Positions 5,632-60,820 of a stretch of 64,000 nt of DNA are shown here, one piece after another (positions within the stretch are counted from its first letter, which is position 1; every line of letters begins with the position of its first letter). The notes beneath the pieces were generated by a model. It was not told the origin of the DNA, made no database searches, and saw only the letters and a list, made by a program, of their open reading frames with translations. Made by a program: the position numbers and the translations under genes. The stretch covers positions 124,001 to 188,000 of the forward strand of contig PVBG01000001.1 of the NCBI GenBank assembly GCA_002968845.1, given 5' to 3'. Source of the DNA: Neorhizobium tomejilense (GTDB taxonomy: Bacteria; Pseudomonadota; Alphaproteobacteria; Rhizobiales; Rhizobiaceae).

Positions 5632-5669
5632 AAAATCCGGACCTCGGATTTCTGCGGGAGCTGACGGCA

Positions 5670-6230: not shown

Positions 6231-7819
6231 CTATTCTCAAGACATTCCGCACAGCGGCTCTCGCCGCCGTACTGCTCGGCAGCGTTTCGGGTGCTGCACT
6301 TGCCGCCGACCTGATGATCGGCGTGCGCGCCGGCCCGCTATCGGTCGATCCGCATTTCACCGCCGCCGGCACCCACGCCGAAGCGGTCAAGCATATCTAC
6401 GACTCGCTGGTGAAATCCGGCAACAACCTCGAACTCGAGCCTGGGCTGGCGACCAGCTGGACCGCCATCGACAATACGACCTGGGAGTTCAAGCTCCGCC
6501 CGGGCGTCAAATTCCACGACGGCTCCGACTTCACCGCCGAGGACGTGAAATTCTCGATCGAGCGCATCCCGGCAGTCACCGGCCCAAACCCGACCACCAT
6601 CTATGTGCGCCGCGTCCGAGGTATCGAGATCGTCGATCCGTTGACGATCCGGATCAAGACCGATGGTGCCGCGCCGAACCTGCCGAACGACTTCATCCGC
6701 CTGTTCGTCGTGTCGCACACGGCGGCCAAGGACTTTTCCGCCAATGCCGACAAGGCTTCGGAAGGCTTCAACTCCGGCAAGGCGGCGATCGGTACCGGTC
6801 CCTACAAGTTCGTCTCCTGGACGCCGAAGGAACAGCTCGTGCTGCAGAAGTTCGACGGCTACTGGGGCGAAAAGGAGCCTTGGGACAAGGTGACCCGCAA
6901 GGAAATTCCCAATGATGCGGCCCGCGTTGCGCAGCTGAAAGCCGGCCAGGTCGACCTGATCTCGCGCATCCCGGCCTCCGACGTGCCCACGCTGGAGAAG
7001 GATACCAAGCTCACCGTCGTGCGCCAGAACAGCGTCTACCTCTTCAATATCGCCTTCGACTTCCGTGAGAAGCCGCCGCAGGTGAGCGCCAAGGACGGCT
7101 CGCCGCTGCCCAAGAACCCCTTCCAGGATCCCAAGGTGCGCGAAGCCTTCGATCTGGCGATCGACCGCGAAACGGTCACCGAGATCGCCATGGAGGGCAT
7201 GGGCACCGTCCAGTCGCAACTCGTGACGCCGAACATCTTCGGCTGGAACCCTAACGTCAAATCCACGAAGGCCGATCCGGCTAAGGCCAAGAAGCTGCTT
7301 GCCGAAGCCGGATATCCGAACGGCTTCAAGGTGACCTTCTCCTTCACCAACGACCGCCTGCCGGGTGACAAGGATGTGGGCACGACGATCGCACAAATGC
7401 TGACCGCAATCGGCATCCAGGTGGAAGCGAACTCTCAGCCGGGCGCCGTGTTCTTCCCGGCTAACACGCGCGGAGACTACTCGATGACCATGTCGGGCTG
7501 GGGCACGCTGACAGGTGAATCGAACTACACGCTGTCTTCGCTGGCCCACAGCAACGATGCGACCACCAAGCTCGGCGCCTTCAACCTTCGCGGCTATGTC
7601 AACAAGACGATGGACAAGCTGATCGAGGACGCCGCCATCGAGATGGACCCCAAGAAGCGCGAAAAGTTCCTGATGGATGCCAATGCCCTGGTTTCGACCG
7701 ATCGGCCCTATCTGGCGATTGCCTCGACCGTCTCGGCCTGGGGCATGAAGAAGGGCATCACCATCGTTCCCCGTTCCGACGAGGACACGCTGGCAATGAA
7801 CATCCGCCCGGCGAAATAG
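6227..7819 (+). CDS. periplasmic binding protein of peptide-type ABC importer (DppA family)
   Basis: A 530-residue extracellular solute-binding protein, family 5. Residues 1-27 form a Sec signal peptide (hydrophobic LAAVLLGSVSG, cleavage after ALA). The family signature blocks include LEPGLATSW, KLRPGVKFHDGSDFTAEDVKFS and GTGPYKFVSW; the length is normal. The start ATG overlaps the marR stop, with an AGAGGAG ribosome site in the end of marR. It is the periplasmic receptor for the permeases and ATPase encoded on the opposite strand (1126-4684). The split of one importer between two divergent units is consistent with shared operators at 5565-5631. Confidence 0.93.
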   Translation: MTILKTFRTAALAAVLLGSVSGAALAADLMIGVRAGPLSVDPHFTAAGTHAEAVKHIYDSLVKSGNNLELEPGLATSWTAIDNTTWEFKLRPGVKFHDGSDFTAEDVKFSIERIPAVTGPNPTTIYVRRVRGIEIVDPLTIRIKTDGAAPNLPNDFIRLFVVSHTAAKDFSANADKASEGFNSGKAAIGTGPYKFVSWTPKEQLVLQKFDGYWGEKEPWDKVTRKEIPNDAARVAQLKAGQVDLISRIPASDVPTLEKDTKLTVVRQNSVYLFNIAFDFREKPPQVSAKDGSPLPKNPFQDPKVREAFDLAIDRETVTEIAMEGMGTVQSQLVTPNIFGWNPNVKSTKADPAKAKKLLAEAGYPNGFKVTFSFTNDRLPGDKDVGTTIAQMLTAIGIQVEANSQPGAVFFPANTRGDYSMTMSGWGTLTGESNYTLSSLAHSNDATTKLGAFNLRGYVNKTMDKLIEDAAIEMDPKKREKFLMDANALVSTDRPYLAIASTVSAWGMKKGITIVPRSDEDTLAMNIRPAK

Positions 7820-7904: not shown

Positions 7905-8855
7905 ATGGGAAAGATTGCGCTGGCGATCCACGGCGGCTGCGGCGTCATGGCGAAGCTCGACCTGAGCGACGAGGAATGGGCGGCTGCCCGTGTCGATCTC
8001 GGACGGGCGCTGAAAGCCGGCTGGGAAATCCTGACGGCAGGCGGCGCGGCGCTCGACGCGGTGCAGGCCGCCGTGGTCGTCATGGAGGATTCGCCGCATT
8101 TCAACGCCGGTTACGGCGCAGCGCTGAACACCAACGGCAAACATGAGCTCGACGCATCGATCATGGACGGCCGCACGCTCGAAGCCGGCGCGGTGACGCT
8201 GGTGCGGCGCATCCGCAATCCGATCAAGGCGGCCCGCAAGATCATGGAAGATGGCGATGCGATCCTGCTTGGCGGCGATGCGGCCGACGATTTCGCCCGC
8301 GAGGCGGGGCTCGATATCGTCGAGCCGGACTATTTCACCACCGAGCGCCGCACCAAGGCGCTGGCGGCGATGAAGGCGCATGCTGCGGCGGGCACAGCGG
8401 CGAAAGCCAGCGAGTCGGAAAAGCATGGCACGGTCGGTGCGGTGGCGCTCGACAGCGCCGGGCATCTGGCGGCGGCGACCTCGACTGGCGGCTACAACAA
8501 CAAGCCGGAAGGCCGGATCGGCGACACCCCGATCATCGGCGCAGGAACCTATGCACGGGACGGGGCCTGCGCCGTTTCCGGCACCGGCAAGGGCGAATAT
8601 TTCATGCGTTATGCCGTCGGCCATGAAGTGGCGGCCCGCGTCTCCTATCTCGGCGAGAGCCTTGAGAAGGCCGCCGCAAAGGTCATCCAGGAGGACCTGA
8701 AGCAGCACGATATCGGGGCAGGCCTCGTGGCGGTCGGCGCCGACGGCTCGATCACCGCGCCTTACAATACGGACGGCATGTTCCGCGGCTGGGTGACGCC
8801 GGAAGGCGAATTCCACGTCGCCACCCATGGCGAGGTTTTCCCGATCAATCCCTGA
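7905..8855 (+). CDS. iaaA: isoaspartyl peptidase / L-asparaginase (Ntn hydrolase)
   Basis: A 316-residue plant-type asparaginase. These proteins cleave themselves in front of a threonine that becomes the nucleophile; here it is T176 in HGTVGAVALD. Other family blocks are visible: IHGGCG at the N-terminus, NAGYGAALN, and STGGYNNKPEGRIGDTPIIG, which shapes the substrate pocket. The enzyme hydrolyses beta-aspartyl dipeptides and asparagine in the cytoplasm. It sits on the same strand just after the binding-protein terminator, so it may be transcribed by readthrough or from its own promoter. Next to a peptide importer, a job in using beta-aspartyl peptides or related amides is plausible. Confidence 0.92.
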   Translation: MGKIALAIHGGCGVMAKLDLSDEEWAAARVDLGRALKAGWEILTAGGAALDAVQAAVVVMEDSPHFNAGYGAALNTNGKHELDASIMDGRTLEAGAVTLVRRIRNPIKAARKIMEDGDAILLGGDAADDFAREAGLDIVEPDYFTTERRTKALAAMKAHAAAGTAAKASESEKHGTVGAVALDSAGHLAAATSTGGYNNKPEGRIGDTPIIGAGTYARDGACAVSGTGKGEYFMRYAVGHEVAARVSYLGESLEKAAAKVIQEDLKQHDIGAGLVAVGADGSITAPYNTDGMFRGWVTPEGEFHVATHGEVFPINP

Positions 8856-8876
8856 ACCGGCAGAACTTCCGGCACG

Positions 8877-8903
8877 AAAAGTCCGGCGGGATGACCGCCG
8901 GAC
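8877..8903 (-). terminator. terminator of hppD
   Basis: GTCCGGCGG and CCGCCGGAC form a perfect nine-base-pair stem with a five-base loop. On the minus strand it is followed by CTTTT, so it fits as the end of the hppD transcript; on the plus strand there is no T run directly after it, but it lies between the convergent genes. Confidence 0.75.
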
Positions 8904-8927
8904 CTCGCGCCCTCCGGAGCCGCTCTT

Positions 8928-10043
8928 TTATTCGGCGGCTTGCTGCGGCTTCAGGACGCCGCGGCGGATCTGGTCTTCCTCGATGGATTCGAACAAGGCG
9001 CGGAAATTGCCTTCTCCAAATCCTTCGTCGCCCTTGCGCTGGATGAACTCGAAAAAGATCGGGCCGATCACTGTTTTCGAGAAGATCTGCAGCAGGATCT
9101 TGGTCGTGCCGCCATCGACCACGCCTTCGCCATCGATCAGGATGCCGTGTTTCTTCATCCGCTCGATCGGTTCGTCGTGGCCGTGCACACGGGTTCCGGA
9201 CATTTCGTAATAGGTATCCGGCGGGCCGGGCATGAATTTCAGCCCATTGTCGGCGAGCTTGTCGGTCGCTTCGTAAATGCCGTCTGTGCCGACCGCGATA
9301 TGCTGGATGCCTTCGCCCTTGTACTTCTTCAGGAATTCCTCGATCTGGCTGGTCTCGTCCTTCGACTCGTTCAGCGGGATGCGGATCTTGCCGCAGGGCG
9401 AGGTGATCGCCCGGCTCACCAGGCCGGTGATGCGGCCGTCGATGTTGAAGAAGTGGATCTGCTTGAAATTGAAGAGTTCGCGGTAGAAGTCCCACCACTT
9501 GTCCATGTTGCCGCGATAGACGTTGTGGGTCAGGTGGTCGAGGTAATAGAAACCGACGCCTTCGGGCCTGGGGTTGCGTGTCTCCAGCCACTCGAATTCG
9601 GCCTCATAGGCCGACCCCTTCTCGCCGTAGGTCTCGATGAAATAGAGAAGCGAACCGCCGATGCCGACGATGGCCGGCACGTCGAGCGTCTTATCCTTGC
9701 CCTCATAAGGCGTCGCACCCTTGGCGACCGCGTGGTCGAAGGCATGTTTGGCATCGACGACGCGCCAGGCCATCGCCGGCGCGCAGGGGCCGTGCTCATC
9801 GACGAAGCGCATGGCATGGCTGCCCGGCTCGGCATTGACGACGTAATTGATGTCGCCCTGGCGCCAGACGGTGATGTTCTTCGTCCTGTGCTTCGCCGCC
9901 GGCCTGTAGCCCATGCGGGTGAACAGCTCTTCGAGCTTCTGCGGCTCCGGATGGGCGAATTCGACGAATTCGAAACCATCGGTGCCTGCCGGGTTGTCGG
10001 CGGTAATCTCAGAAACCGGTGCGTCGTGCGGGAAAGGACCCAT
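8928..10043 (-). CDS. hppD: 4-hydroxyphenylpyruvate dioxygenase
   Basis: A 371-residue Fe(II) enzyme that turns 4-hydroxyphenylpyruvate into homogentisate, the entry step of tyrosine breakdown. The two-domain vicinal-oxygen-chelate layout is intact. The three iron ligands are visible: H170 in YLDHLTHNV, H248 in GIQHIAVG and E332 in FFEFIQRKGDEGFGEGNF, partly conserved through the C-terminal helix that closes the active site. The ATG at 10043 has AGGAGG upstream. It is divergent from an Lrp-type regulator gene, and the next genes to the right supply the following three steps of the pathway. Confidence 0.97.
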   Translation of the reverse strand: MGPFPHDAPVSEITADNPAGTDGFEFVEFAHPEPQKLEELFTRMGYRPAAKHRTKNITVWRQGDINYVVNAEPGSHAMRFVDEHGPCAPAMAWRVVDAKHAFDHAVAKGATPYEGKDKTLDVPAIVGIGGSLLYFIETYGEKGSAYEAEFEWLETRNPRPEGVGFYYLDHLTHNVYRGNMDKWWDFYRELFNFKQIHFFNIDGRITGLVSRAITSPCGKIRIPLNESKDETSQIEEFLKKYKGEGIQHIAVGTDGIYEATDKLADNGLKFMPGPPDTYYEMSGTRVHGHDEPIERMKKHGILIDGEGVVDGGTTKILLQIFSKTVIGPIFFEFIQRKGDEGFGEGNFRALFESIEEDQIRRGVLKPQQAAE

Positions 10044-47894: not shown

Positions 47895-49075
47895 ATGTCC
47901 GAAGTCGTCATCGTCCAGCCGGTGCGCACCGCGATCGGCAAATATAACGGCTCGCTCGCCGGCATACCGGCGGTCGATCTCGGTGCTGCGGTCATCCGCA
48001 AGACGATCGCGCGTTCCGGCCTTGCCGCTTCCGAGGTGGCCTCGGTCACCATGGGCAATGTCGTCCAGGCCGGCAACAGGATGAACCCGGCGCGGCAGGC
48101 GGCGATCCATGGCGGCCTGCCGGTCTCGGTGCCGGCAGTCACGGTCAACCGCGTCTGCGGCTCGGGCGCCGAAGCGATCGCCAGTGCGGCCAAGGATATC
48201 TGGCTCGGCCATGCCAGTGCCGCCATTGCCGGCGGCATGGAGAACATGGACCGCGCGCCCTACCTGATGAGCGGCGGCCGCTGGGGTTATCGCATGGGCC
48301 ATGCGGAAATTTTTGACAGCATGCTGCTCGACGGCCTGCACGATGCATTTTCGGGCCGACATTCCGGCTGGCATACCGAAGACATGATCGCGTCGCAGCA
48401 GATCAGTCGCACGGACCAGGATCGCTGGGCGGCACGTTCGCAGCAGCGTTTCAGCGCCGCGCAGGCGGAAGGCAGGTTCGCAGCCGAGATCGTTGGCATC
48501 GACCTTCCGGTGAAGGGTGGCGTGAGAAGTTTTGTCGCCGACGAAACGCCAAGGCCGGATACCACGATAGAGGCGCTTGCCAAGCTCAAGCCTGCCTTCC
48601 GCGACGACGGCACGATCACCGCCGGCAATGCGCCGGGTCTCAACAGCGGCGCGGCGGCGATGATCGTCGCCGACCGGGCGTTTGCCGAAGCCAAGGGCCT
48701 GCGCCCGATGGCGCGGCTGGTGCCTATGGCGTTGCCGCCGTCGAACCCGGCATGTTCGCGCTCGCGCCGATCCCGGCGGTCAATCAGGCGCTGGAGCGTG
48801 CCGGCTGGACGATCGGCGATATCGAGCGGATCGAGATCAACGAGGCCTATGCGGCGGTGCCGCTCGCGGTCCTGAAAGGCCTCGGCCTGCCGGAGTATAT
48901 CGCCAATGTCGAAGGCGGGGCGGTGGCGCACGGTCACCCGATCGGCGCGACCGGCGCGATCCTGACGACGCGGCTTCTCCATTCGATGCAGCGCGACGGC
49001 CTGAAGCGCGGTGTCGTCACGCTCTGCATCGGCGGCGGCCAAGGCATCGCGCTTGCGTTGGAGATGATCCGATAG
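47895..49075 (+). pseudogene. acetyl-CoA acetyltransferase (thiolase) with frameshift
   Basis: The first reading frame runs from ATG 47895 and encodes a normal thiolase start with C88 in NRVCGSGAEAI. Near base 48720 the protein similarity moves to another frame, which continues through EINEAYAAVP, the catalytic GGAVAHGHPIGATG and the second cysteine in TLCIGGGQG to TAG 49073-49075. Adding one base at about 48718-48723 (GTGGCC instead of GTGCC) restores a continuous protein of about 393 residues, the family length. Unrepaired, the first frame ends at 48875 and lacks the catalytic histidine and second cysteine. This is either a recent null mutation or a sequencing error. Confidence 0.85.
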
Positions 49076-49156: not shown

Positions 49157-50176
49157 TTACGGATAGATTTTCTTGGCCAGATCCATCATCGGGCCGTATT
49201 CGTTCATCTCGCGGGTGCCGAGCAGCTTGGCGCCGGCGAAGCGCTTGGATTCCGGGTCGAGCTGGTCCTCGACACCCTTGGCGACCGGCAGCATCCAGGC
49301 CTTGGCGTAGGTGACCTGCGATTCCATGTCGAGGAAGTGGTTGATGAACAGTTTTGACGCGTTCGGATGCGGCGCGTTCTTCATCATCGCGAAATGGATC
49401 GAGACGTAGGGCACCCCTTCCGGTGGCACGATCACCTTGATCGGCAGGCCCTTCAGGTCGTTGGCGAATGCGAACATCTGCGGAATGTAGACGGGATATT
49501 CGCCCCGGGCTACACGCTTGGCGTCATTGCGCAGATCGCGGCTGAAGACCGGCTTGTTTTCGGCGAGCTTCTCGTTGAACGCCTGGCCGAGGGCCTTGTG
49601 GAAGACCACGAACATCGTGCCGCCGGAACCGAGCGGGCGCATGTCGTCGGAGAGGATCTTGCCCTTCCATTTCGGGTCGGCAAGGTCCTTCCAGCTTTTC
49701 GGTTCGTCTTCCGGCTTGACCAGGCTGGTGTTGACCAGGATGCCGTAGGCCTGCAGGAAACCCGGCACGTGGGTGTCGGTAATTTCCTTGCGCATGTCCT
49801 CGCGGATATTGGCGACGTTCGGGATGGTGCCGAGCGGCTGTACGAGGGTGCCCTGGGTGACGCCGGTCTCGATCGAGTTCGCCGAATGCATCTGGATGTC
49901 GGCGATGAAGCGGCCGGCGGCCTGTTCGGCGCGCAGGCGCTCGGTCAGCTCGCTGGCGCGCAGGTCGAGCGACTCGACCTTGATGCCGTATTTCTTCTGA
50001 AAGCTTTCGACGACGGCGAGAAAGTTCGGGGCGCCGAGTTGCGAATTGTAGACGGTGACGGTGCCTTCCTTCTTGGCGGCTTCCACCACCTTGTTCCAGT
50101 CGGCATCCTGCGCAAGCGCCGGGCTACAGAGCATCGCGCCGAGCGCGAGCGCGGCCAATTTGGTGATGAGCGACAT
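49157..50176 (-). CDS. periplasmic binding protein, family 1 (Fe/aromatic type), no permease of its own
   Basis: A 339-residue secreted protein with a 22-residue signal peptide (cleavage after ALA). It belongs to the FbpA/AfuA-like class of extracellular binding proteins. It shares many segments with the protein at 56718-57797, for example EAAKKEGTVTVYNSQLG against DAGKKEGSLVLYTALVG and SWKDLADPKWKGKILSDD against SWKDIADPKWQGKILSDD. It lacks the tyrosine pairs expected of true iron binders in the segments I can compare, so an organic ligand is more likely. It is the last gene of the amidohydrolase operon and has no adjacent permease; it probably uses the importer at 57872-60820. Confidence 0.88.
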   Translation of the reverse strand: MSLITKLAALALGAMLCSPALAQDADWNKVVEAAKKEGTVTVYNSQLGAPNFLAVVESFQKKYGIKVESLDLRASELTERLRAEQAAGRFIADIQMHSANSIETGVTQGTLVQPLGTIPNVANIREDMRKEITDTHVPGFLQAYGILVNTSLVKPEDEPKSWKDLADPKWKGKILSDDMRPLGSGGTMFVVFHKALGQAFNEKLAENKPVFSRDLRNDAKRVARGEYPVYIPQMFAFANDLKGLPIKVIVPPEGVPYVSIHFAMMKNAPHPNASKLFINHFLDMESQVTYAKAWMLPVAKGVEDQLDPESKRFAGAKLLGTREMNEYGPMMDLAKKIYP

Positions 50177-50211: not shown

Positions 50212-50625
50212 TCAGATCTCGACGATCACGTAGTCCTCGTCGATGGAGACCGGAAAGGTTTCGGCCTGGTAGGGACCTTCGCTAAGCGCCCCGCCCTTGG
50301 CGACGGACACGTCGAAGCTCTTGACGCGGGTGCGCGCCGGATCGCACCAGGACTTGCCGGTGCGGATGTCGAATTCCCAGCCGTGCCAGGGGCAGCGGAC
50401 GAGTTCGCCATGGCGCGTCATGCGGTATTTGCCGGGCTCGTCCGACTCGGCGAGGCCTACGACCTGGCCGCGGCAGAGATCGGCGCCCTCGTGCGGGCAG
50501 CGATTGGCAATGGCGAAAAACTCGCCCTTGACGTTGAAGAGGGCGATGTCGCGGCCGGCGACCTTCACCAGCTTGGACTTGCCGACTTCGAGTTCATCGA
50601 CCTTGGCGATTACGTGACGGGCCAT
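50212..50625 (-). CDS. Rieske-type [2Fe-2S] ferredoxin
   Basis: A 137-residue soluble protein. The cluster motif is complete: CPHEGADLCRG supplies the first Cys-His pair and CPWHGWEFD the second. It has no membrane anchor or catalytic domain, so it is an electron carrier or regulatory partner rather than an oxygenase. Such ferredoxins normally serve ring-hydroxylating dioxygenases or monooxygenases, but none is encoded beside it. It starts two bases after the stop of an amidohydrolase gene, so it is co-translated with that enzyme family. Its partner is not apparent. Confidence 0.93.
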   Translation of the reverse strand: MARHVIAKVDELEVGKSKLVKVAGRDIALFNVKGEFFAIANRCPHEGADLCRGQVVGLAESDEPGKYRMTRHGELVRCPWHGWEFDIRTGKSWCDPARTRVKSFDVSVAKGGALSEGPYQAETFPVSIDEDYVIVEI

Positions 50626-50627
50626 GC

Positions 50628-51734
50628 TCAGTTCAATCCATAGAAGTTGATAGCGTTTCCGGCGAAGATCGCCGCTTTTTCGGCCGCCGACAGCGGCACC
50701 TTGAAGGCGTAGCGGGGGTCGTCGAAATCCCAGTGGGGATAGTCGGTCGAGAACATCAGCCGGTCGGTGCCGATCCAGTTCAGCGTGTCCGTGAGGTTCT
50801 TGGCCGGGTTCGGCTCTTCCATCGGCTGGGTGGTGAACCAGATGTTGTTCTTTAGATATTCCGAGGGCGGCCGCTTCACATGCGGGACCTCGTCGCGCAT
50901 CGCACCCCAAGCCTTGTCCATGCGCCAGCCGAAGGCCGGCACCCAAGAGAAGCCGCCTTCGACGAAGGAGATCTTCAGGCCCGGAAAATGCTCGAAGACG
51001 CCCTCGAAGATCAGGCTAGATATCACCGACTGCATGGTCTGCACCTGGCTGTGGTGCTCCTCGATGTAATAGGAAGGCCAGCCGGCGCCGGTCGCCTGAT
51101 GCCCGCCGACGCCGCCGACATGCAGGGAGATCGGCAGACGGTGACTGACCGCCGCTTCGAAGATCGGCCAGTGGCGGCGTTTTCCGAGCGGCTCGATCGA
51201 GCGCGGCGGCAGCAGGACCTGCACGAAGCGCTTATCGGAGGCGCGGCGGTTGATCTCGGCGATGGCGCTTTGCGGGTCCTCCTGGGTGGCGATGATCGAG
51301 CCGCGCAGGCGCGGTTCCGGCTCCAGGAATTTGCCGACCTGCCAGTCGTTGATGGCGGAGGCGATGGCGGTGGCGAAATCCGGATGGCGCTGGCCGCTGG
51401 CGTTGAAGCGCAGCGGCACGAGCACGCCGATATCGATGCCCAGCCCGTCGAGATGCTGTTCGCGCAGAAAGGAGAGATCGGAACCCGGGGGACCGCCTGC
51501 CGGCGGCCAGCTGTCTACGCGCGAGACCTCCGGCACCATGCGCGGATGGGACAGGGTTTCAGACAGTCCCTGGCGGGTATGGCCGCCATAGGTTGCAAGG
51601 TGATCCCGCCAGCGCTGCGACAGATAGGGATGCATCTCCGCCGGCGTCTTCATCGACGGATGGATGTCGCAGTCGACCAGATTGTATTTGGTCTTCGCCT
51701 CGATCGGGCGTTCCAGCGTTTGGGTTTCGGTCAT
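50628..51734 (-). CDS. ACMSD-type amidohydrolase, type A (copy 1)
   Basis: A 368-residue TIM-barrel protein of the amidohydrolase-2 family, which includes the decarboxylases ACMSD, LigW (5-carboxyvanillate) and gamma-resorcylate decarboxylase, and some hydrolases. Likely metal ligands are D23 and H25 (VDCDIHP), H205 (ISLHVGG) and D331 (FSTDYPHWDFDD). The first motif is DxH, where classic ACMSD has HxH and resorcylate decarboxylase ExH. It overlaps the type B gene upstream by four bases. The near paralogue is at 52872-53975. Action on an aromatic or dienoic acid is inference from the family and the LigM neighbour. Confidence 0.87.
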   Translation of the reverse strand: MTETQTLERPIEAKTKYNLVDCDIHPSMKTPAEMHPYLSQRWRDHLATYGGHTRQGLSETLSHPRMVPEVSRVDSWPPAGGPPGSDLSFLREQHLDGLGIDIGVLVPLRFNASGQRHPDFATAIASAINDWQVGKFLEPEPRLRGSIIATQEDPQSAIAEINRRASDKRFVQVLLPPRSIEPLGKRRHWPIFEAAVSHRLPISLHVGGVGGHQATGAGWPSYYIEEHHSQVQTMQSVISSLIFEGVFEHFPGLKISFVEGGFSWVPAFGWRMDKAWGAMRDEVPHVKRPPSEYLKNNIWFTTQPMEEPNPAKNLTDTLNWIGTDRLMFSTDYPHWDFDDPRYAFKVPLSAAEKAAIFAGNAINFYGLN

Positions 51735-52855
51735 CGTGCGGCCTCCTTCTCAAAATCCGCGGCGATCCGCGGATAAGTGGCGAGCGGGTTGTCTATCAGG
51801 ATCTTCTTCGACAGTGTCTCGCCGAACCTGACCGAGAGCGCCTTGGTGCCTTCGAACTGCGCATGCGGGTAGTCGGTCGAAAACAGCAGAAGATCGTCGC
51901 AGTCGATGTGTTCGAGCGTGCGAGCGAGCGCATCCGTTTCGAGCGGGACTTCGACCGGCTGCAGCGTGAAGCGGACATGCCGCTTGACGATGTCGCTCGG
52001 CTGTTCGGTGACCCAGGGCGTCTCGGCGCGCACGCCGCGCCAGGTCTTGTCGGCCCGCCAGAAGAACGACGGCAGCCATGTGAAGCCGCTTTCGGCAAAC
52101 ACCACCTTGAGGTCCGGCACCTTGTGGAAGACGCCTTCGGCGATGAGGCTGAGGAGTTGGCTTTCGAAGATCGAGCCTTGAGCCACATAGGCCTCGACGA
52201 AGAAACTCGGCCAGCCGGTGGCGGTCGGCGCGTGGCGGTTGCTGCCGCCGGCATGGATACAGAGCGGCAGCTTGTTGCGGGCGGCGGCCTCGTAGATCGG
52301 CCAGTAACGGCGCCGCCCGAGCGGCTCGTCGTTCTGGGCGAGGATCATCACCTGTACGAAACGCGGATCGGCCGCGCGCTTCTCGATCTCGGCGACGGCG
52401 AGGTCTGCGTTCTGGGCCGAGACGATGATCGAACCGCGCAGGCGCGGCTCCTTGTCGAACCATTCCCGCGCCAGCCATTCGTTGACGGCGCCGCAGAGTG
52501 CCGCGGCCATGTCGTCGGAATGCATGATCATCGAGCCGTGCAGCACGTTGCAGATCGCCAGCCGCGTTCCGAACGGGTCGAGCGCCTGGGCGCGGACGGC
52601 TTCCAGCGTATCGCCGGCAAAGCCGCTTGCCGCCTTCCAGTCAGGACGGACATTGATCGGCGCGCGCGGCGGCGATGCGGTCATCGCCAGGCTCATCCGG
52701 TCGACACCGCGCATGATAAAAGTTTCGCGCCAGTAGTCGTCGAGATAGGGCAGCAGCGTCGCGGTCGCCGGCGAGGCCGGATGCAGGTCGCAGTCGATGC
52801 CGCCGATGGTCGACAGTCCAGGCTCGGTGCCCAGCGATCTCACCATTTCATTCAT
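51731..52855 (-). CDS. ACMSD-type amidohydrolase, type B (copy 1)
   Basis: A 374-residue amidohydrolase-2 protein. D23 and H25 lie in IDCDLHP, the barrel histidine in LCIHAGGSNRHAP, and the final aspartate in FSTDYPHAQFEG. The YPHAQFEG ending and the LLPYLDDYWRE segment place it with the gene at 53979-55058 and apart from its immediate neighbours, which have YPHWDFDD. Its two halves look intact and no signal peptide is present, so it is cytoplasmic. It may act with the type A protein as a two-subunit enzyme or on a related substrate. Confidence 0.86.
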   Translation of the reverse strand: MNEMVRSLGTEPGLSTIGGIDCDLHPASPATATLLPYLDDYWRETFIMRGVDRMSLAMTASPPRAPINVRPDWKAASGFAGDTLEAVRAQALDPFGTRLAICNVLHGSMIMHSDDMAAALCGAVNEWLAREWFDKEPRLRGSIIVSAQNADLAVAEIEKRAADPRFVQVMILAQNDEPLGRRRYWPIYEAAARNKLPLCIHAGGSNRHAPTATGWPSFFVEAYVAQGSIFESQLLSLIAEGVFHKVPDLKVVFAESGFTWLPSFFWRADKTWRGVRAETPWVTEQPSDIVKRHVRFTLQPVEVPLETDALARTLEHIDCDDLLLFSTDYPHAQFEGTKALSVRFGETLSKKILIDNPLATYPRIAADFEKEAAR

Positions 52856-52871
52856 GTGAGCACTCCCATGT

Positions 52872-53975
52872 TCAGGGCAGGCGGTAGACGCGCTTTGCGT
52901 TATCGCGAAAAATCTGCGCGCGCTCCATCGGCGACAGCGGCACCTTGAAGGCGTAGCGCGGATCGTCGAAATCCCAGTGCGGATAATCAGTCGAGAACAT
53001 CAGCCGGTCGGTGCCGACCCAGCGCAGCGTGTCGAGCAGGTGGCGGTTGTTTTCCGGCTCCTCGATCGGCTGGGTGGCGAACCAGACGTTCTCGCGGATA
53101 TATTCGGACGGCGGCCGCTTCACATGCGGCACCTCCGAGCGCATCCGCTCCCACTGCTTGTCGAGCCGCCACATCAGCGGGGCCGCCCAGGCGAAGCCGC
53201 CTTCGACGACGATCAGCTTCAGCTTGGGGAAGCGTTCGAAGACGCCTTCGAAGACCATACTGGTGACGACGCTCTGCAGGCTGTGCGAGAAGGCGTAGTG
53301 CTCCTCGATGTAGAAGTTCAGCCAGCCGGCGCCGCTATTCGCGTGCTGGCCATAGGCTGCCGAATGCATGCCGATCGGCATGTCGTAATGTTCGGCAGCC
53401 TCGTAGATCGGCCAGTAGCGGCGACGTCCCGCCGGCTCGATGGTACGCGGCGGAATGGCGATCTGGGCGAAACTCCGGTCGCCGATACGCGCCTCGATTT
53501 CGGCAAGCGCCGCCGGCACGTCTTCCTGGGTGACGGAGATCGAGGCTTTCAGGCGCGGGTCCGGGCCTGTCCATTTGTCGAGCTGCCAGTCGTTGACGGC
53601 AGCGCACATCGCAGCGCCGAGCTCCTGGTTCAGCGTCGAGGAACCGGCCGCCAAGGGTTGCAGGATGCCGTATTCGATGCCGAGCGGGTCGAGCAACTGC
53701 TCCTGCAGATAGGCAAGGTCGGAGGCCGGCGGTCCGCCGTTCGGCGGCCAGGCGTCGCGGCGCATGCCGTTGCCGGGCGTCATGCGCGGATAGGGCAGGG
53801 TGCCGACCACCGGATTGGCACTGCGCTGGCCGTAATCGGCCAGATGGTCGCGCCAGCGGACGGGCAGGAATTTCGCAAGTTCCGCAGGCGAGCCGAAGGC
53901 CGGGTGGATGTCGCAATCGACGATCCCGAGCTTGGCTTCGGTTTTGGTCTCCTTGTCCAGAACGGCTTGGTTCAT
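52872..53975 (-). CDS. ACMSD-type amidohydrolase, type A (copy 2)
   Basis: A 367-residue amidohydrolase-2 protein closest to the one at 50628-51734: both have RWRDHLA, WPPAGGPP or WPPNGGPP, VPHVKRPPSEY and YPHWDFDDPRYAFKVPLS. Candidate metal ligands are D22 and H24 (VDCDIHP), the barrel histidine in IGMHSAAYGQH and the aspartate of STDYPH. Differences around the barrel histidine suggest it has drifted to another substrate. Gap to the type B gene downstream is 16 bases and to the upstream gene three bases. Confidence 0.86.
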   Translation of the reverse strand: MNQAVLDKETKTEAKLGIVDCDIHPAFGSPAELAKFLPVRWRDHLADYGQRSANPVVGTLPYPRMTPGNGMRRDAWPPNGGPPASDLAYLQEQLLDPLGIEYGILQPLAAGSSTLNQELGAAMCAAVNDWQLDKWTGPDPRLKASISVTQEDVPAALAEIEARIGDRSFAQIAIPPRTIEPAGRRRYWPIYEAAEHYDMPIGMHSAAYGQHANSGAGWLNFYIEEHYAFSHSLQSVVTSMVFEGVFERFPKLKLIVVEGGFAWAAPLMWRLDKQWERMRSEVPHVKRPPSEYIRENVWFATQPIEEPENNRHLLDTLRWVGTDRLMFSTDYPHWDFDDPRYAFKVPLSPMERAQIFRDNAKRVYRLP

Positions 53976-53978
53976 GGC

Positions 53979-55058
53979 TTAGTCCTCCAGTCGCGAATAG
54001 GTGGCGAGCGCGTTCTGCCGAACCAGCCGGTCGATCAGCCGTTCCGGGAAACCGGCGGGAATCGCGGCGTCGCCTTCGAATTGCGCATGCGGGTAGTCGG
54101 TCGAGAACAACAGCATGTCGTCGCAATCGAGATGTTCGATGATGCGTTCCAGTTCGGCCGGGTCGTGCGGCGCATCGAAGGGCTGCGTCGTCATGCGGAT
54201 CTGGCGGCGGACGAGGGCCGACGGCGGCTCCTTGACCCACGGTATCTCGATGCGGGCGCCGCGCCAGTCCTTGCTCATCCGCCACATCTGGCCGGGCAGC
54301 CAGGAGACGCCGGACTCGATCAGCACGATCTTCATGTCGGGGAACTTGCCGAGCACGCCTTCGGAAACGAAACTGCCGACCTGGGCTGCAAAACCCTGGA
54401 CCTGATGGGCGTAATCCTCGGCGAGATAGGAGAGGAAACCGCTCTGGCTCGGCGCGTGGCGGTAGGCGCTGCCGGCATGCACGCCGAGCGCAAAACCATG
54501 GCGCTGGGCGGCCTCGTAGACCGGCCAGTAGATGCGGCGGCCGAGCGGCATCTCGCCCATGCAGAGCGTCAGCACCTGCACGAAACGCTTGTCATCGGCG
54601 AAGCGCTCGATCTCCTCGACGGCGGCTTCCGGGTTCTGCATCGGCAGGACGAGCGAGGCGCGCAGGCGCGGGTCGCGGTCCAGCCATTCCGTCTTCAGCC
54701 AGTCGTTAGTGGCGCGGCAGACGGCGGTCGCGAGATAGGGATCGTAGATCGCATGCACGGCGGTGATGCAGTTGAGGATCGCGTATTTGAGACCGTAGGG
54801 ATCGAGCAGGTTTTTCCGCAGCCTTTCGACGCCCTTGCCCTCCGTCGCTTTCCAGTCCTCCCGGAAGAACGGCTTGGTGCGGGTCGGGAAATTGGTTAGC
54901 TCGAGACGGTCGACATCGCGCGTCGTAACGATCTCGCGCCAGTAATCGTCGAAATAGGGAAGAAGATCCTCTCGCCCCGGCGCGTCCGGATGAACGTCAC
55001 AATCGATCGCGCCCAATTGCGAAAGCACAGGGCGCTGCTGGGTCACAGCAGTATCCAC
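53979..55058 (-). CDS. ACMSD-type amidohydrolase, type B (copy 2)
   Basis: A 359-residue amidohydrolase-2 protein, paralogue of the one at 51731-52855 (shared LPYFDDYWRE-type segment, RHAPS, TDYPHAQFEG). D21 and H23 form the DxH motif in IDCDVHP. It starts at GTG 55058 with GGGAGG nine bases upstream and is the first gene of the six-gene minus-strand operon that ends with the Rieske ferredoxin and binding protein. The promoter should lie in the 239 bases above it, where a long palindrome is found. Confidence 0.86.
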   Translation of the reverse strand: MDTAVTQQRPVLSQLGAIDCDVHPDAPGREDLLPYFDDYWREIVTTRDVDRLELTNFPTRTKPFFREDWKATEGKGVERLRKNLLDPYGLKYAILNCITAVHAIYDPYLATAVCRATNDWLKTEWLDRDPRLRASLVLPMQNPEAAVEEIERFADDKRFVQVLTLCMGEMPLGRRIYWPVYEAAQRHGFALGVHAGSAYRHAPSQSGFLSYLAEDYAHQVQGFAAQVGSFVSEGVLGKFPDMKIVLIESGVSWLPGQMWRMSKDWRGARIEIPWVKEPPSALVRRQIRMTTQPFDAPHDPAELERIIEHLDCDDMLLFSTDYPHAQFEGDAAIPAGFPERLIDRLVRQNALATYSRLED

Positions 55059-55297: not shown

Positions 55298-56203
55298 TCA
55301 CGCTGCTCGATCACCCGGAACGAGAGCTGCGTGCATATGAATACGCAGCCACTCCATGAGCGCACGCACGGTCGGTTTGCGCGCCTGGGTCTGGGGGATG
55401 AGCGCCTTCAGCCAGAGTTCCGCGACGGGATAGTCCGGCAGGAGCTCGATTAGCTTGCCGGTCCGGATGGATTCTTCCGCCACGTAATTCGCCACCATGG
55501 CAACGCCACGGCCTCGCAGCGCCAGGTCGTGCAGGATTTGGGTATCGTTGGCGCTGAAGGAGGAGCGCACCTCGACATCGATCGGGCCGCCGGGGCTGCG
55601 GAAGGACCAGGTCGAACCCGTCGCGTGGAACGTCAGGCAGATGTGATTGACCAGATCGCGCGGGTGTTTCGGCAGGCCGCGGTTTTCGAGATAATCCGGA
55701 GCTGCGCAGAGTTTTCGCGGATAGGGGCAGAGCGGTTCGTCGACGACGTTGGAATAGGAGGCGGGCAGGGCGCCGAGCGCGATGTCGTATCCTTCTTCCG
55801 CCGGATTGACTGAGCGGTCGACCAGCGCAAGATCCATCGTGACGTTCGGGTTCTCCTGCTGGAAGTCGCTCAGGATGCGGGCGAGGAAGGCGATCGTCAC
55901 CGTCGTCGGCGCCTTTATCCTCAAATGTCCCTCGATCCGCTGGGCGACGGCCGCCGCTCCGCTGATGGCATCGTCGATCTCCTTGACCAGAGATTGGTAG
56001 CGGGGCAGGTAGCGCTCACCGATCTCCGTCAGGATGATCTGGCGGGTCGAGCGGACGAAGAGTTTCACCCGCATCTGGTCTTCCAGCCGGCTGATGCGTT
56101 TGGTCACGACCGAGGGTGCGACGCCGAGATGACGGCCGGCCGCCGAAAAGCTGCCGGACCGGGCAACCGCCAGAAACGTGCGGATATTGATAAGCGTATC
56201 CAA
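55298..56203 (-). CDS. LysR-family regulator of the amidohydrolase region
   Basis: A 301-residue LysR protein: helix-turn-helix SFSAAGRHLGVAPSVVTKRI at about 18-37, linker helix, and a two-lobed effector domain. I chose TTG at 56203 because it gives the standard LysR beginning (MDTLINIRTFLAVARSG) and has GGGAG ten bases upstream; an ATG at 56266 would add 21 unusual residues and has a poor ribosome site. It lies between the amidohydrolase operon (same strand) and the importer operon (opposite strand), so it could control both in response to the imported acid. The length and domains are normal. Confidence 0.87.
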   Translation of the reverse strand: MDTLINIRTFLAVARSGSFSAAGRHLGVAPSVVTKRISRLEDQMRVKLFVRSTRQIILTEIGERYLPRYQSLVKEIDDAISGAAAVAQRIEGHLRIKAPTTVTIAFLARILSDFQQENPNVTMDLALVDRSVNPAEEGYDIALGALPASYSNVVDEPLCPYPRKLCAAPDYLENRGLPKHPRDLVNHICLTFHATGSTWSFRSPGGPIDVEVRSSFSANDTQILHDLALRGRGVAMVANYVAEESIRTGKLIELLPDYPVAELWLKALIPQTQARKPTVRALMEWLRIHMHAALVPGDRAA

Positions 56204-56717
56204 TGTCTTAGGTCTCCCATGCCGCCATGTCGGGCAGCCCTCCGCATAAACGGTAACACAATTCATCTTTCTATTTTCGAGAAAAGTGAATGTAAAAAAA
56301 TGGTGCTTTTCCCCTGCACGGGAAAAGGTCAATCTAACAGAAGAGGGAGTTCCGGTGCCGGGTGGCATCGCCGCGACCGGCAGGGAGAGCCGGCGCAGAT
56401 CGGAATTCAGATAAAGGGGGTTTGCAGTTGGCCGAGGCCAATCCTGTCCGAACCGAAGGCCTGAATGCTCCGTATCATGCGGTGCTTATCAGGGACCTTG
56501 TCAATTGCAGGATGCGCGCCAGATCGTTTCTGGAACACCGGTGAGCGGTCGGGATTAAGCCGGAAATTAAGGCCCAGTTGCAGCTGTTCGGGAAAACGCC
56601 ACCGCTTGCGGTGAAAAGGGAGATCGCGGCCGGTGGCCGCAGAAATTTTGAGCGTCGAGTGCCGGGATCGGGTTCCGGGCGCGATGCTCGATCGTCGGTT
56701 CCAGGGAGGAGAGACAC
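56204..56717 (+). promoter_or_regulatory. intergenic region between lysR and importer operon
   Basis: A 514-base gap without a supported gene; small frames here show no recognisable protein. It contains TTCGAGAAAAG at 56276-56286, like the arm of the palindrome at 55234, and a stem-loop CTTTTCCC/GGGAAAAG at 56306-56327. The binding-protein start at 56718 has a strong AGGGAGGAG site just before it. The promoter of the importer operon must lie here, but I could not fix its position. Confidence 0.45.
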
Positions 56718-57797
56718 GTGACGACAAACACATCCATGACTTCGGCCATTCAGAAGGCTTCGGCCATTCAAAAATGGTCGCGCCGGGTTTTCATGGCGGC
56801 TGCGGGCAGCCTTGCCATCTCGGCGGCGGCTGGCCTTCCTGCCTTGGCGCAGGATGCCGAGTGGCAGAAGGTGATCGACGCGGGCAAGAAGGAGGGCTCG
56901 CTCGTCCTCTATACCGCGCTCGTCGGCCAGCCGAGCACCAAGCAGATCGCCGAGGCCTTTACCAAGCAATACGGCATCTCGGTCGAAGTGCTTGAAGCGC
57001 GCGCCAGTGAAATCCGCGAGCGCGTCCGCGTCGAGCAGGCCGCGGGCCGCTTTGCTGCCGACGTGATGTTCACCAGCGAAGGGCAGACCATGCTCTACGA
57101 CAAGGAGGACAAGTCCGTCGATCCGCTGCCGGTGACCCCGAATTCGCAAAAGATCGGCGACAAGTTCAAGCTCAAGGTGCCGATGGCCTCGGTCATGACC
57201 ATTCCCTACGGGATCATGATCAACACCGGCCTCGTGAAGCCAGCCGACGAGCCGAAGAGCTGGAAAGACATTGCCGATCCCAAGTGGCAGGGCAAGATCC
57301 TGTCCGACGACCCGCGCGCGATCGGTGCCGGTTACCTCTGGTTCTTCTCGACCCATGACAAGATCGGCGAAGACTATTTGAGGAAGGTCGCGAGCCAGAA
57401 GCTCGTCTTCACCCGCGACCAGCGCGAGTCGCAGCGCCGCACCGCACGCGGCGAATATTCGATCTACATGCCGGTCATCATGACCGATTTCTCGGATCTG
57501 AAGGGGCTGCCGGTCAAGTTCATCATTCCGGAGGAGGGCGTTCCTTACGTTCTTTACGGCACCGTCATGCTCAAGAAGGCTCCGCACCCGAACGCCGCCA
57601 AGCTCTATCTCGATTTCATGCAGGGCCCGGTCGTGCAGAAAATCTATGCGAGCCTCGGCTACGGTCCCGTCCTTCCCGGCATGACCGAGGGCCTGCCGGC
57701 GGACGTCAAGGCGATTTCCGAAGCCAAGCTCTACGGCACGACGGACACGACCCGCCAGAACGAGATGCTGGCCAAGTCCAAGGACATCTTCAAGTAA
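56718..57797 (+). CDS. periplasmic binding protein of Fe/aromatic-type ABC importer
   Basis: A 359-residue family 1 binding protein. It has a long N-terminal region with a twin-arginine-like signal (SRRVFMAAAG at 21-30) ending ALA near 44. It starts at GTG 56718 with a strong ribosome site. The mature part is paralogous to the orphan protein at 49157-50176. It feeds the two-domain permease and ATPase that follow. Iron transporters share this fold, but the surrounding amidohydrolase and demethylase genes favour an organic acid. Confidence 0.9.
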   Translation: MTTNTSMTSAIQKASAIQKWSRRVFMAAAGSLAISAAAGLPALAQDAEWQKVIDAGKKEGSLVLYTALVGQPSTKQIAEAFTKQYGISVEVLEARASEIRERVRVEQAAGRFAADVMFTSEGQTMLYDKEDKSVDPLPVTPNSQKIGDKFKLKVPMASVMTIPYGIMINTGLVKPADEPKSWKDIADPKWQGKILSDDPRAIGAGYLWFFSTHDKIGEDYLRKVASQKLVFTRDQRESQRRTARGEYSIYMPVIMTDFSDLKGLPVKFIIPEEGVPYVLYGTVMLKKAPHPNAAKLYLDFMQGPVVQKIYASLGYGPVLPGMTEGLPADVKAISEAKLYGTTDTTRQNEMLAKSKDIFK

Positions 57798-57871: not shown

Positions 57872-59638
57872 ATGACGATTATCCACAATCGCCCCCTAGA
57901 CGACATCGCCGAAACTGCGCCGACGATTGCCGGCAATGCTTTCACGCGCGCCTTTTCGGGCGGATCGCTGTGGCGTCTGATCGGCATGCTGGTGCTGATC
58001 CTGATCCTCGGCTTCCTGACGATCTATCCACTCGCCATGCTGCTCTACGGCAGCCTGCATTCCACACCGCCCGGCATGGCCGGCGAGTTCAATCTGAACG
58101 GCTACCGGTCGATTATGACCACCCAAAACCTCATCGTTCTGGCCAACACGATCGGCATATCGCTCGCCAAAACCATACCGTCGCTGACGATCGCAGTGTT
58201 TCTCGCCTGGATCGTCGCGCGCACCGACACGCCCTTCCGGGGCACGCTGGAAGTGCTGATCACGCTGCCGTTCTTCATTCCTCCGATCCTGACCGCCATG
58301 GCCTGGGGCATGCTCGCCAACCCGCAGGTGGGCGTCATCAACATGGTGTGGCGCTGGCTGACCGGTGGTACCGATCCGCTCGTCAACATCTATTCCTATG
58401 GCGGCGTCATCTGGCACATGTGCCAATATTCGATCCCGTTCCTCTTCCTGTTCATGGTCGACGCCTTCCGGGCGATGGATCCGTCGCTCGAGGAATCGAG
58501 CCGCATGTGCGGCGCCTCGCGCTGGACGACTTTTCGCAAGATCACGCTGCTCCTGATGCTGCCGGTGCTGACCAGCTCCTTCATGCTGAGCTTCATCAAG
58601 GGCATCGAGACCTTCGAGTCGGCGCTGTTCTTCGGCCTGCCCGCAGGCATCAAGGTGATCACCACCGACATCTACGAGTCGATCAACCACCGCGCGACGC
58701 CCGACTACCAGTACGCGACGTCGCTTTCCTTCGCGATCATGGGGCTGATGTTCCTGCTCGTCATCTGGCAGTGGTGGATGCTGCGCGGCAAGAGCTTCCA
58801 GACCGTCACGGGCAAAGGGTTTCGCCCGAGCGTCATGGAACTCGGCCCGTGGCGCTGGGTCACCTTCGCCTTCTGCGTGCTGTTCTTCTTCGTCACGGTG
58901 GTGTTGCCGATCGGGCAGCTGATGCTCGGCTCGTTCTTCCGTTTCTTCGGCTTCTACACCTACGACATGCTGACGCTGGAGCATTACAGGTCCGTCTTCG
59001 CCAACAGCGAATTCTGGCGGGCGGTCCGCAATACGATGATGCTCGGCCTGCTCGGCGCTACCGCGACCATGGCGCTCGGCGCGATCGTCGCCTACATCTC
59101 GGTGCGCACCCGCTGGCGTGGCCGCAACCTGATCGACAGCATGGCCTGGCTTCCGTGGATGATGCCGGGCATGGTGCTCGGCGTCGGGTTCCTCTGGGCG
59201 TTTGCGATGCTGCCGGGACCGATCCCGATCTATGGCACCATTTGGGCGCTGTTGCTTGCCTATATCGCGCTCGGAACGCCGGTTTCCGTGCGGGTGATGA
59301 CCGGCGCCTATCACCAGCTTTCCTATGACCTGGAAGAATGTTCGCGTGTCCACGGAGCCAGCTGGTTCCAGACCATGTGGCGGATCATGGTGGCGCTTGC
59401 CTGGCCGGCCTTCGCGGTCGGCTGGGTGCTGACCTTCTTCGGCATCATGCGAGAACTGTCGGCGTCGATCCTTCTCTATTCGGTGGGCTCGGAAACGCTG
59501 GCGGTCGTGCTGATGAAACTCTGGGCCAACGGCAATGCCGAACAGGTAAGCGTCATCGGCCTGATGATGATGCTTCTGGTCATCGTGTTCCGCTGGGTCC
59601 AGCTCAGCTTCATCAAGGCCCGCATCAGCAAGCTTTAG
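57872..59638 (+). CDS. ABC importer permease with two transport domains (FbpB type)
   Basis: A 588-residue inner-membrane protein that holds both halves of the pore in one chain, as in FbpB/AfuB. About 12 hydrophobic segments are visible. Each half has an ATPase-coupling loop: DPSLEESSRMCGASRWTTFR at about 205-224 and DLEECSRVHGASWFQTMW at about 487-504. A polar N-terminal tail of about 30 residues precedes the first helix. It joins the binding protein upstream and the ATPase downstream. Confidence 0.93.
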   Translation: MTIIHNRPLDDIAETAPTIAGNAFTRAFSGGSLWRLIGMLVLILILGFLTIYPLAMLLYGSLHSTPPGMAGEFNLNGYRSIMTTQNLIVLANTIGISLAKTIPSLTIAVFLAWIVARTDTPFRGTLEVLITLPFFIPPILTAMAWGMLANPQVGVINMVWRWLTGGTDPLVNIYSYGGVIWHMCQYSIPFLFLFMVDAFRAMDPSLEESSRMCGASRWTTFRKITLLLMLPVLTSSFMLSFIKGIETFESALFFGLPAGIKVITTDIYESINHRATPDYQYATSLSFAIMGLMFLLVIWQWWMLRGKSFQTVTGKGFRPSVMELGPWRWVTFAFCVLFFFVTVVLPIGQLMLGSFFRFFGFYTYDMLTLEHYRSVFANSEFWRAVRNTMMLGLLGATATMALGAIVAYISVRTRWRGRNLIDSMAWLPWMMPGMVLGVGFLWAFAMLPGPIPIYGTIWALLLAYIALGTPVSVRVMTGAYHQLSYDLEECSRVHGASWFQTMWRIMVALAWPAFAVGWVLTFFGIMRELSASILLYSVGSETLAVVLMKLWANGNAEQVSVIGLMMMLLVIVFRWVQLSFIKARISKL

Positions 59639-59725: not shown

Positions 59726-60820
59726 ATGGCTTCGGTGACGCTCGAAAACGTGAGCCGCATGTATGGCGCGATAACTGCCGTGGACAACGTGAACCTGAAG
59801 ATCAAGAGCGGCGAGTTCGTCACGCTGCTTGGGCCATCGGGCTGCGGCAAGACGACGACACTGCGCATGGTGGCAGGCCTCGAGAAGAATACCGGCGGCC
59901 GCATCGCGATCGGCGACAATGTCGTGTCGGATTCGGAGAAGGGCTATTTCGTGCCCTCCGAACGCCGGCGTCTCGGCATGGTCTTCCAGTCCTATGCGAT
60001 CTGGCCGCATATGACGGTGTTCGACAACGTCGCCTATCCCTTGCGCATCCGCCGCCGTCCCGACAAGGAGATCCAGGATCGCGTCATGAACGCGCTGCGC
60101 CTCGTCGAGATGGAGCAATATGCCGAGCGTCCGTCGCCGGCACTGTCCGGCGGCCAGCAGCAGCGCGTGGCGATCGCCCGTGCGCTGGTGTTCGAGCCGG
60201 AAGTGCTGCTGCTCGACGAGCCGCTTTCCAACCTCGACGCGCGCCTGCGCACCCAGATGGGCGATGATTTCCGCGCGCTGCAGCAGCGCCTGAAGATTAC
60301 CGCGCTCTACGTCACCCACGACCAGGCGGAAGCCATGGCGCTGTCCGACCGGGTGGTCGTCATGCATGGCGGCAGGATTTTGCAGGTCGGCGCGCCGGAG
60401 GAAATCTACCGCCGGCCGGAAAACCGCCAGGTGGCCGCCTTCTTTGGAACGCCCAACCTGCTGAACGCCACAGTCAAGGACTGCCGCCCGAACGGCGGGC
60501 AATATTACAAGCTCTCGGTCGAAGGCCAGGGCTGGTCCGGCGACTGTCATGCGGCAACCGAAATGCCGAAGGGTGCGGATGTTACGGTCATGGTTCGGCC
60601 GGAAAACCTGCATGTCCGCGATGCGGGCCAGGTGAACGGCGATCTTTCGTGGTCCGGCGAGGTTTCGCAGGCGATCTTCCGCGGCTCGCACCGCTCGATC
60701 ATGGTCAAGACCCCGGCGCAGACGTTGCATGTCGAGGCCTCGTCGCTTTCGAACGTGGATATCGGCCGCCCGGTCACGGTCGCCGCACCCGTGGAGGCTG
60801 CCTGGGCCGTGCGGAACTGA
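59726..60820 (+). CDS. ABC importer ATPase (FbpC/PotA type)
   Basis: A 364-residue ATPase. Walker A GPSGCGKTTT is at about 37-46, the signature is LSGGQQQRVAIARAL, Walker B VLLLDEPLSNLD, and the switch histidine is in YVTHDQAEAM. The last 110 residues form the TOBE regulatory domain. It starts at ATG 59726 with AAGGAAGAG upstream. It completes the importer and could also serve the orphan binding protein at 49157. Confidence 0.93.
   Translation: MASVTLENVSRMYGAITAVDNVNLKIKSGEFVTLLGPSGCGKTTTLRMVAGLEKNTGGRIAIGDNVVSDSEKGYFVPSERRRLGMVFQSYAIWPHMTVFDNVAYPLRIRRRPDKEIQDRVMNALRLVEMEQYAERPSPALSGGQQQRVAIARALVFEPEVLLLDEPLSNLDARLRTQMGDDFRALQQRLKITALYVTHDQAEAMALSDRVVVMHGGRILQVGAPEEIYRRPENRQVAAFFGTPNLLNATVKDCRPNGGQYYKLSVEGQGWSGDCHAATEMPKGADVTVMVRPENLHVRDAGQVNGDLSWSGEVSQAIFRGSHRSIMVKTPAQTLHVEASSLSNVDIGRPVTVAAPVEAAWAVRN

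Follow-up and report, generated by a model that had tools for sequence, protein, structure and literature searches.

The window analysed here is a stretch of 64,000 nucleotides from Neorhizobium tomejilense (contig PVBG01000001.1, positions 124,001 to 188,000 of the forward strand), in which four adjacent minus-strand genes between positions 50628 and 55058 probably encode two heteromeric oxygenases of the AibH1H2 type and not decarboxylases, as judged from sequence comparison and predicted structures. We name the genes after the two AibH subunits. H1a and H2a form pair a, H1b ('A prime') and H2b ('B prime') form pair b, the H1 genes being the A genes and the H2 genes the B genes of the array. 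To the explanation as a whole, namely that two diverged oxygenases are served by one Rieske donor and did not arise by local duplication, we assign a probability of about 0.82. According to this explanation, H2 would be the catalytic TIM barrel with two metals (Mn/Fe or Fe/Fe) that carries out the O2-dependent hydroxylation of a small organic substrate, and H1 would hold one structural metal and be needed to build the H1-H2 complex. H1a would partner with H2a and H1b with H2b. A single operon-encoded Rieske ferredoxin would feed electrons to both pairs, the reductase being encoded elsewhere, and the pairs would probably serve two related compounds by means of a single ABC transporter equipped with two binding proteins.

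All four open reading frames (ORFs) match Amidohydro_2 (PF04909) over nearly the whole profile. In coordinate order they are H2b (50628-51734, E 5.1e-45), H1b (51731-52855, E 6.6e-34), H2a (52872-53975, E 2.5e-46) and H1a (53979-55058, E 1.1e-34). An earlier reading of this DNA from its letters alone (the sequence-only reading) had described four neighbours of one family in which alternate genes are alike, and this is borne out: H2b and H2a are 53.8% identical (197/366), H1b and H1a 47.9% (172/359; about 49% in another comparison), whereas the four A versus B comparisons give 33.1-38.7%. The translations contain the motifs it quoted: YPHWDFDD, VPHVKRPP and RWRDHLA occur in both B proteins, YPHAQFEG and LPYxDDYWRE in both A proteins. 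It made no mention of the gene that follows the fourth one, which encodes an AibG-like Rieske [2Fe-2S] ferredoxin (50212-50625, minus strand; PF00355, E 3.1e-18, in an ORF scanned to 50643). The ATG of this gene, at 50625, lies two bases past the H2b stop, and its translation holds the CxH...CxxH cluster motif (CPH...CPWH). Transcription runs through H1a, H2a, H1b, H2b and the Rieske gene to the gene of an extracellular solute-binding protein (SBP), SBP_a (49157-50176, minus strand; PF13343). Since the intergenic spacings along this series are 3, 16, -4, 2 and 35 bases, the -4 being the overlap of H1b with the start of H2b and the 35 separating SBP_a from the Rieske gene, the six genes likely form a single operon.

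Published systems are cited here from excerpts of the papers concerned. The hydroxylase of 2-aminoisobutyrate monooxygenase, AibH1H2, is an alpha2 alpha'2 complex. Its AibH2 subunit has a dinuclear site formed by D25, H27, H211, E265, D337 and H340, with D342 as a second-sphere residue, and its AibH1 subunit has a mononuclear site and lacks the acid at 342 (PMC7782822). The active cofactor of the complex is Mn/Fe, activity is reduced by the D342A exchange and AibH1 is regarded as structural (PMC10401708). The class has been named amidohydrolase-related dinuclear oxygenases (AROs), four of which were found via their Rieske neighbours (PMC10811679).

Each of the four window proteins finds its best solved relative in the corresponding Aib subunit. 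H2a scores 318 bits with AibH2 (6m1w_B) and 162 with AibH1, H2b 303 and 192, H1a 269 with AibH1 (6m1w_A) and 194 with AibH2, and H1b 242 with AibH1 (6m2i_A) and 221 with AibH2. In the alignment, the six AibH2 metal-ligand columns read D, H, H, E, D, H in all four; the DxH, barrel His and late Asp seen by the sequence-only reading are thus kept together with a Glu and a further His. The D342 column holds D in H2a and H2b and Q in H1a and H1b, and the YPHWDFDD and YPHAQFEG endings, which span this position, correspond to the published H2/H1 difference. H2a and H2b are therefore putative catalytic subunits, H2a with a dinuclear site, H1a is a putative non-catalytic subunit with a mononuclear site and H1b an AibH1-type subunit.

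The same ligand set was found well beyond the window. A genome scan supplied the best 80 loci of 576 confirmed matches, nearly all alphaproteobacterial or proteobacterial by title, and as these loci were picked by H2 patterns, the set is biased towards the clade of the window. In the wider alignment, from which PF04909 matches below 100 bits and four loci overlapping others (L003, L005, L006 and L008) were left out, rows were sorted by the residue at the 342 column, which accordingly fixes the H2 and H1 classes. DHHEDH is present in 99 of the 100 H2-class rows, five of them solved chains, the remaining row starting too late for two positions, and in 88 of the 92 H1-class rows (two of the others being incomplete and two having other residues at ligand columns). 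For H2b and H1b, AlphaFold models (predicted template modelling score 0.84 each; mean predicted local distance difference test 81 and 79) were compared with solved structures by Foldseek. The H2b model has chains from AibH1H2 entries as its eight best matches, with 39-41% identity, and the H1b model is 34-35% identical to AibH1. With both models, E values are <=1e-23 for AibH1H2 and SfbO-type chains and no better than 4e-14 for decarboxylases. The PF04909 fold, the six AibH2 ligands, an acid at D342 confined to H2 and an adjoining Rieske gene are thus found together, as in AROs of the AibH1H2 type.

The Rieske ferredoxin is the probable electron donor for both pairs. Directly upstream of the array lies a LysR-type regulator gene (55298-56368, minus strand; PF00126 and PF03466, scanned as 55298-56221), which is syntenic in relatives. 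It is followed on the plus strand by the divergent gene of a second solute-binding protein, SBP_b (56718-57797; PF13416), 43.6% identical to SBP_a, and by genes for an ABC transporter double permease (57872-59638; PF00528 in two stretches) and an ABC transporter ATPase (59726-60820; PF00005 and PF08402). Each H1-H2 pair most likely hydroxylates, with O2 and Rieske electrons, a small compound imported by the neighbouring transporter. The transporter resembles the NCBIfam 2-aminoethylphosphonate or polyamine families with shown scores all below the curated cut-off, and we therefore claim no substrate.

The distribution of pair b bears on what the two pairs might do. A relative of H2b at E <=1e-80 occurs in 6 of 247 genomes of the family, and both pairs are present in four (the genome of the window, G047, G140 and G070). 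G070, from another genus, has the array and SBP_a, with no match to SBP_b or the permease within its 14 kb stretch. Within the genus, an orthologue of H2a (at least 89% identical; one cut by a contig end) was found in 16 of 57 genomes, and pair b also in 9 of these 16; the genus genomes overlap with scan loci (e.g. L103/L015 and L105/L070) and are thus not independent samples. SBP_a (at least 87%) occurs in exactly the nine genomes with both pairs (9/9 versus 0/7 with pair a only), and SBP_b in loci both with and without pair b. Synteny was examined in all 16 pair-a genomes (15 loci and the window). In the seven that carry pair a with the Rieske gene and without pair b, a stretch of 50-64 nt between H2a and the Rieske gene matches the last 36-54 nt of H2b, with scores of 21-28 versus 8-14.5 for the end of H2a, and none of 1000 letter shuffles did as well. 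This remnant points to loss of pair b in these loci.

How often pair b changed state depends on the gene. Four changes are counted on the pair-a tree (without L109, which is incomplete, and L070, the same strain as L105), four on the LysR tree and three on the SBP_b tree, but only one on the Rieske tree, where the strains with pair a only form one clade (97/94). Pair b and SBP_a may hence have gone missing together in one event that recombination then spread; several independent joint losses are not claimed, and the association of SBP_a with pair b is suggestive, not proven. Across L095-L110, strains are grouped differently by the trees of adjacent genes. The disagreement suggests that the block of pair b, Rieske gene and SBP_a moves between strains by recombination, and strains have apparently exchanged the middle block.

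These data are relevant to the possibility that the pairs act successively on one substrate, in two oxidations, and not on two substrates. One apparent operon, one Rieske ferredoxin and one transporter core would suit such a sequence. However, pair b is missing together with one of the two solute-binding proteins while pair a persists, which suggests separate compounds but possibly reflects a single event, and we regard successive action as rather unlikely.

The partnership of H1 and H2 is a conserved trait. Among the 80 best scan loci, the window and two further loci from its own genome (L009 and L013), H1 lies directly upstream of 90 of 95 H2-type genes, and a 91st, in L038, has an upstream H1 outside the distance rule. 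The remaining four are in L018, which is cut by a contig end, in L013, a distant single ARO-like gene, in L022 and in L073. L022 holds an extra divergent H2 gene (5646-6725) beside a complete pair, and L073 an H2 gene (7944-8999) with a Rieske gene and no separate H1 match in the locus; both are possible exceptions to the H1-H2 rule. A Rieske ORF was found in 68 of 83 loci. Single A-B pairs, whose existence the sequence-only reading had left to be looked for, are the commonest state, with one H2-type gene in 39 of 47 full-length scan loci. The obligate A+B partnership proposed by that reading is therefore well founded as regards its conservation, but it is not new, since a heteromeric H1+H2 oxygenase of amidohydrolase fold is described in the excerpts of PMC7782822, PMC10401708 and PMC10811679. 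Two diverged H1-H2 pairs also lie within about 10 kb of each other in L061, L067, L083, L038 and L111, some of these loci having two Rieske genes or a permease/ATPase in common; clustering of separate pairs recurs in other loci.

We also compared the distance matrices of H1 and H2 over 88 of the 90 pairs, pairs being dropped if a subunit had 300 or fewer aligned residues. The correlation, which includes species history, is r = 0.857, and it stays at 0.857 when the array lineage is left out (74 pairs); in both cases none of 2000 permutations reached this value. For the two window pairs against all pairs, r is 0.951 for the encoded partners and -0.069 once these are exchanged, and five other array loci behave likewise, but these values lean on the array loci being orthologues of one another. 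Against the 74 outside pairs, r falls to 0.646 as encoded and -0.029 exchanged. Taken alone, pair a gives 0.828 with its own partner and 0.353 across, and pair b only 0.095 and -0.330. The control without the array lineage thus upholds pair a and not pair b, and we dropped the statement that both pairs clearly co-evolved: partner co-evolution is clear for pair a and weak for pair b.

One mixed enzyme of four subunits, or swapping of partners such as H1a with H2b, might instead provide combinatorial specificity. A common transcript, suggested by the spacing, and the one Rieske gene are in keeping with this, as is the little history that H1b and H2b share with outside pairs. It is nevertheless improbable, because own-partner correlations exceed cross correlations outside the array lineage for pair a and pair b alike, and in seven genomes pair a is the only pair beside the Rieske gene.

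Pairs a and b were probably not duplicated in place. The approximately unbiased (AU) test rejects a clade of a and b for H2 (p 0.0089; 93 rows) and for H1 (p 0.00019; 89 rows), p values that are somewhat optimistic since the tested groups were chosen once initial trees had been inspected. Excluded from these tests were the reference chains, all rows with at most 300 residues and, for H2, the L013 gene; long branches (L013, AibH1 and others) had been flagged in an earlier tree. In quick trees of the four proteins with their relatives, pair a and pair b are placed apart. Pair a falls into a strongly supported group (100) with Phyllobacteriaceae, other rows and a third pair of its own genome, and pair b lies outside this group, H2b near Bradyrhizobium and Roseomonas pairs (support 86), H1b near Beijerinckiaceae and other pairs (support 88). 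The window Rieske is found among the Rieskes of pair-a-type loci (14 rows, 93/86). By sequence, pair a and the Rieske ferredoxin belong with other Rhizobiaceae and Phyllobacteriaceae systems, whereas pair b does not.

In an order-wide sample of 397 genomes, 28 have a relative of H1b at E <=1e-70. The closest ones in this sample outside the genus of the window are 54-55% identical and come from other families, among them L115 from a different family, which has a single such pair in the order H1-H2-Rieske-SBP_a-permease-ATPase. In the simplest history, an H1a-H2a-Rieske operon apparently took in H1b-H2b between H2a and the Rieske gene, with SBP_a behind. The third pair of the same genome, on contig C33 (L009, 6877-10740), is immediately preceded by a GMC oxidoreductase gene, and its 19 kb locus yielded no Rieske match. 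On contig C66, a distant single PF04909 gene (L013, 5788-7741) with the full dinuclear ligand set and its own Rieske gene is a further candidate oxygenase of this genome.

The sequence-only reading had taken the A-B-A-B order and the alternate similarity as signs that an A-B gene pair was duplicated in place with both copies retained. Such a duplication is very improbable in view of the AU tests, of the closer relation of pair a to the C33 pair (61% identity in H1 and 67% in H2, versus about 48-49% and 54% with pair b) and of the position of the Rieske ferredoxin with those of pair-a-type loci.

ACMSD carries an HxH metal motif and a catalytic His on a later strand, whereas all four window proteins have DxH and a Glu at the E265 column. 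That the four genes encode non-redox hydrolases or decarboxylases of the ACMSD or gamma-resorcylate decarboxylase kind, as the label ACMSD-type of the sequence-only reading implied, is scarcely credible even though Pfam family and fold are shared, because H2b scores 53 bits with gamma-resorcylate decarboxylase and about 40 with ACMSD as compared to 303 with AibH2, because AibH1H2 and SfbO-type chains give 162-318 bits with H2a and H2b as queries, and because of the D, H, H, E, D, H plus D342 metal site, the adjoining Rieske ferredoxin and the Foldseek values of H2b.

Several results weigh against the explanation that we favour, in addition to the single change on the Rieske tree and the weak co-evolution of pair b. 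H1b is just modestly closer to AibH1 than to AibH2, and the top Foldseek match of its model is SfbO. The ARO PtmU3 reaches only 4e-14 to 6e-14 in Foldseek (6e-14 with H2b), no better than or barely above the decarboxylases. A comparison with the SfbO sulfate site placed N67, R232, R235 and W341 only and did not reproduce Y280, and nothing was drawn from it. No Fer2 match indicating an AibF-like reductase was found on the contig of the window (C11); 15 Fer2 matches lie elsewhere in the genome, none of which was singled out as AibF partner. Without a reductase gene beside the ferredoxin gene, the cluster is not classed as a complete three-component aibH1H2GF operon. The trees of H1b and H2b disagree on their neighbours (86-88), so that pair b may be a mosaic or a long branch. 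Moreover, eight of the 47 full-length scan loci have two H2 genes, with two solute-binding proteins in five (all of the array lineage), one in one and none in two, and two or more also occur in five of the 39 single-H2 loci; that two pairs always mean two binding proteins therefore fails as a rule across these loci.

Bringing these elements together, we tentatively propose, with the odds slightly short of even, a double-headed operon in which a foreign H1-H2 pair has come to lie between an oxygenase and its Rieske ferredoxin, so that two heteromeric Mn/Fe-type oxygenases differing in ancestry would share the donor or compete for it. Together with the two solute-binding proteins of the one transporter, they would constitute an exchangeable uptake and oxidation module for two substrates, swapped between strains in one block.

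Apart from the array, the window contains a thiolase gene that is apparently interrupted (47895-49075). The ORF of its N-terminal domain stops at 48875, and a stretch resembling the thiolase C-terminus, as judged by eye, runs on in another frame.

AROs have been described recently and few have been studied. What the window adds is a known class of oxygenase in a doubled operon whose ancestry is probably mixed, the partnership itself not being new: one apparent operon holds two H1-H2 pairs 48-54% alike and one ferredoxin gene, and close relatives lack one of the pairs. Two pairs with one ferredoxin gene were not found in the open-licence PubMed Central (PMC) literature searched, parts of which were available, although absence there proves little; nor did this literature yield tandem H1-H2 pairs or a report of Neorhizobium with amidohydrolase and Rieske genes. 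The array permits direct tests of partner specificity, of the role of H1 and of the sharing of a Rieske ferredoxin, and the presence or absence of SBP_a is a lead towards the compound on which pair b acts. A further suggestion is that some alphaproteobacterial PF04909 'amidohydrolases' are oxygenases, a proposal made in general form in the excerpts of PMC10401708 and PMC10811679.

Among known systems, ACMSD and gamma-resorcylate decarboxylase share the PF04909 TIM barrel with the window proteins and match them only weakly in sequence. They are non-redox enzymes encoded by a single gene. Their metal is mononuclear or absent (PMC10811679). PtmU3 (PDB 6omp; at most 75 bits with window queries) is, like the predicted window enzymes, a dinuclear hydroxylase of amidohydrolase fold. 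It differs in functioning without an H1 partner (PMC10401708) and in taking CoA-linked substrates (PMC7782822). SfbO and three other AROs (PMC10811679; PDB 8sm6-8sm9) resemble the window in fold, dinuclear ligand set and Rieske neighbour, but the excerpts present each of them as one PF04909 protein, in contrast to the H1-H2 pair. The nearest system is AibH1H2 of Rhodococcus wratislaviensis, which acts with AibG and AibF (PMC7782822, PMC10401708; PDB 6m1w, 6m2i, 8ful-8fuo). The AibH1 contacts K282 and Y287 (PMC12141560) mismatch the numbering of our alignment and were not used. Unlike the aib cluster, the window has two pairs in one apparent operon and no adjoining reductase gene, an ABC transporter takes the place of the amino acid permease, and no other aib enzymes are found among the window genes scanned with Pfam. 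Common to both are the H1-H2 gene order with the Rieske gene directly after it and a LysR regulator in the cluster, which in the aib system is AibR (PMC7782822), as well as the metal-ligand positions, the second-sphere Asp restricted to H2 and the best match of each subunit.

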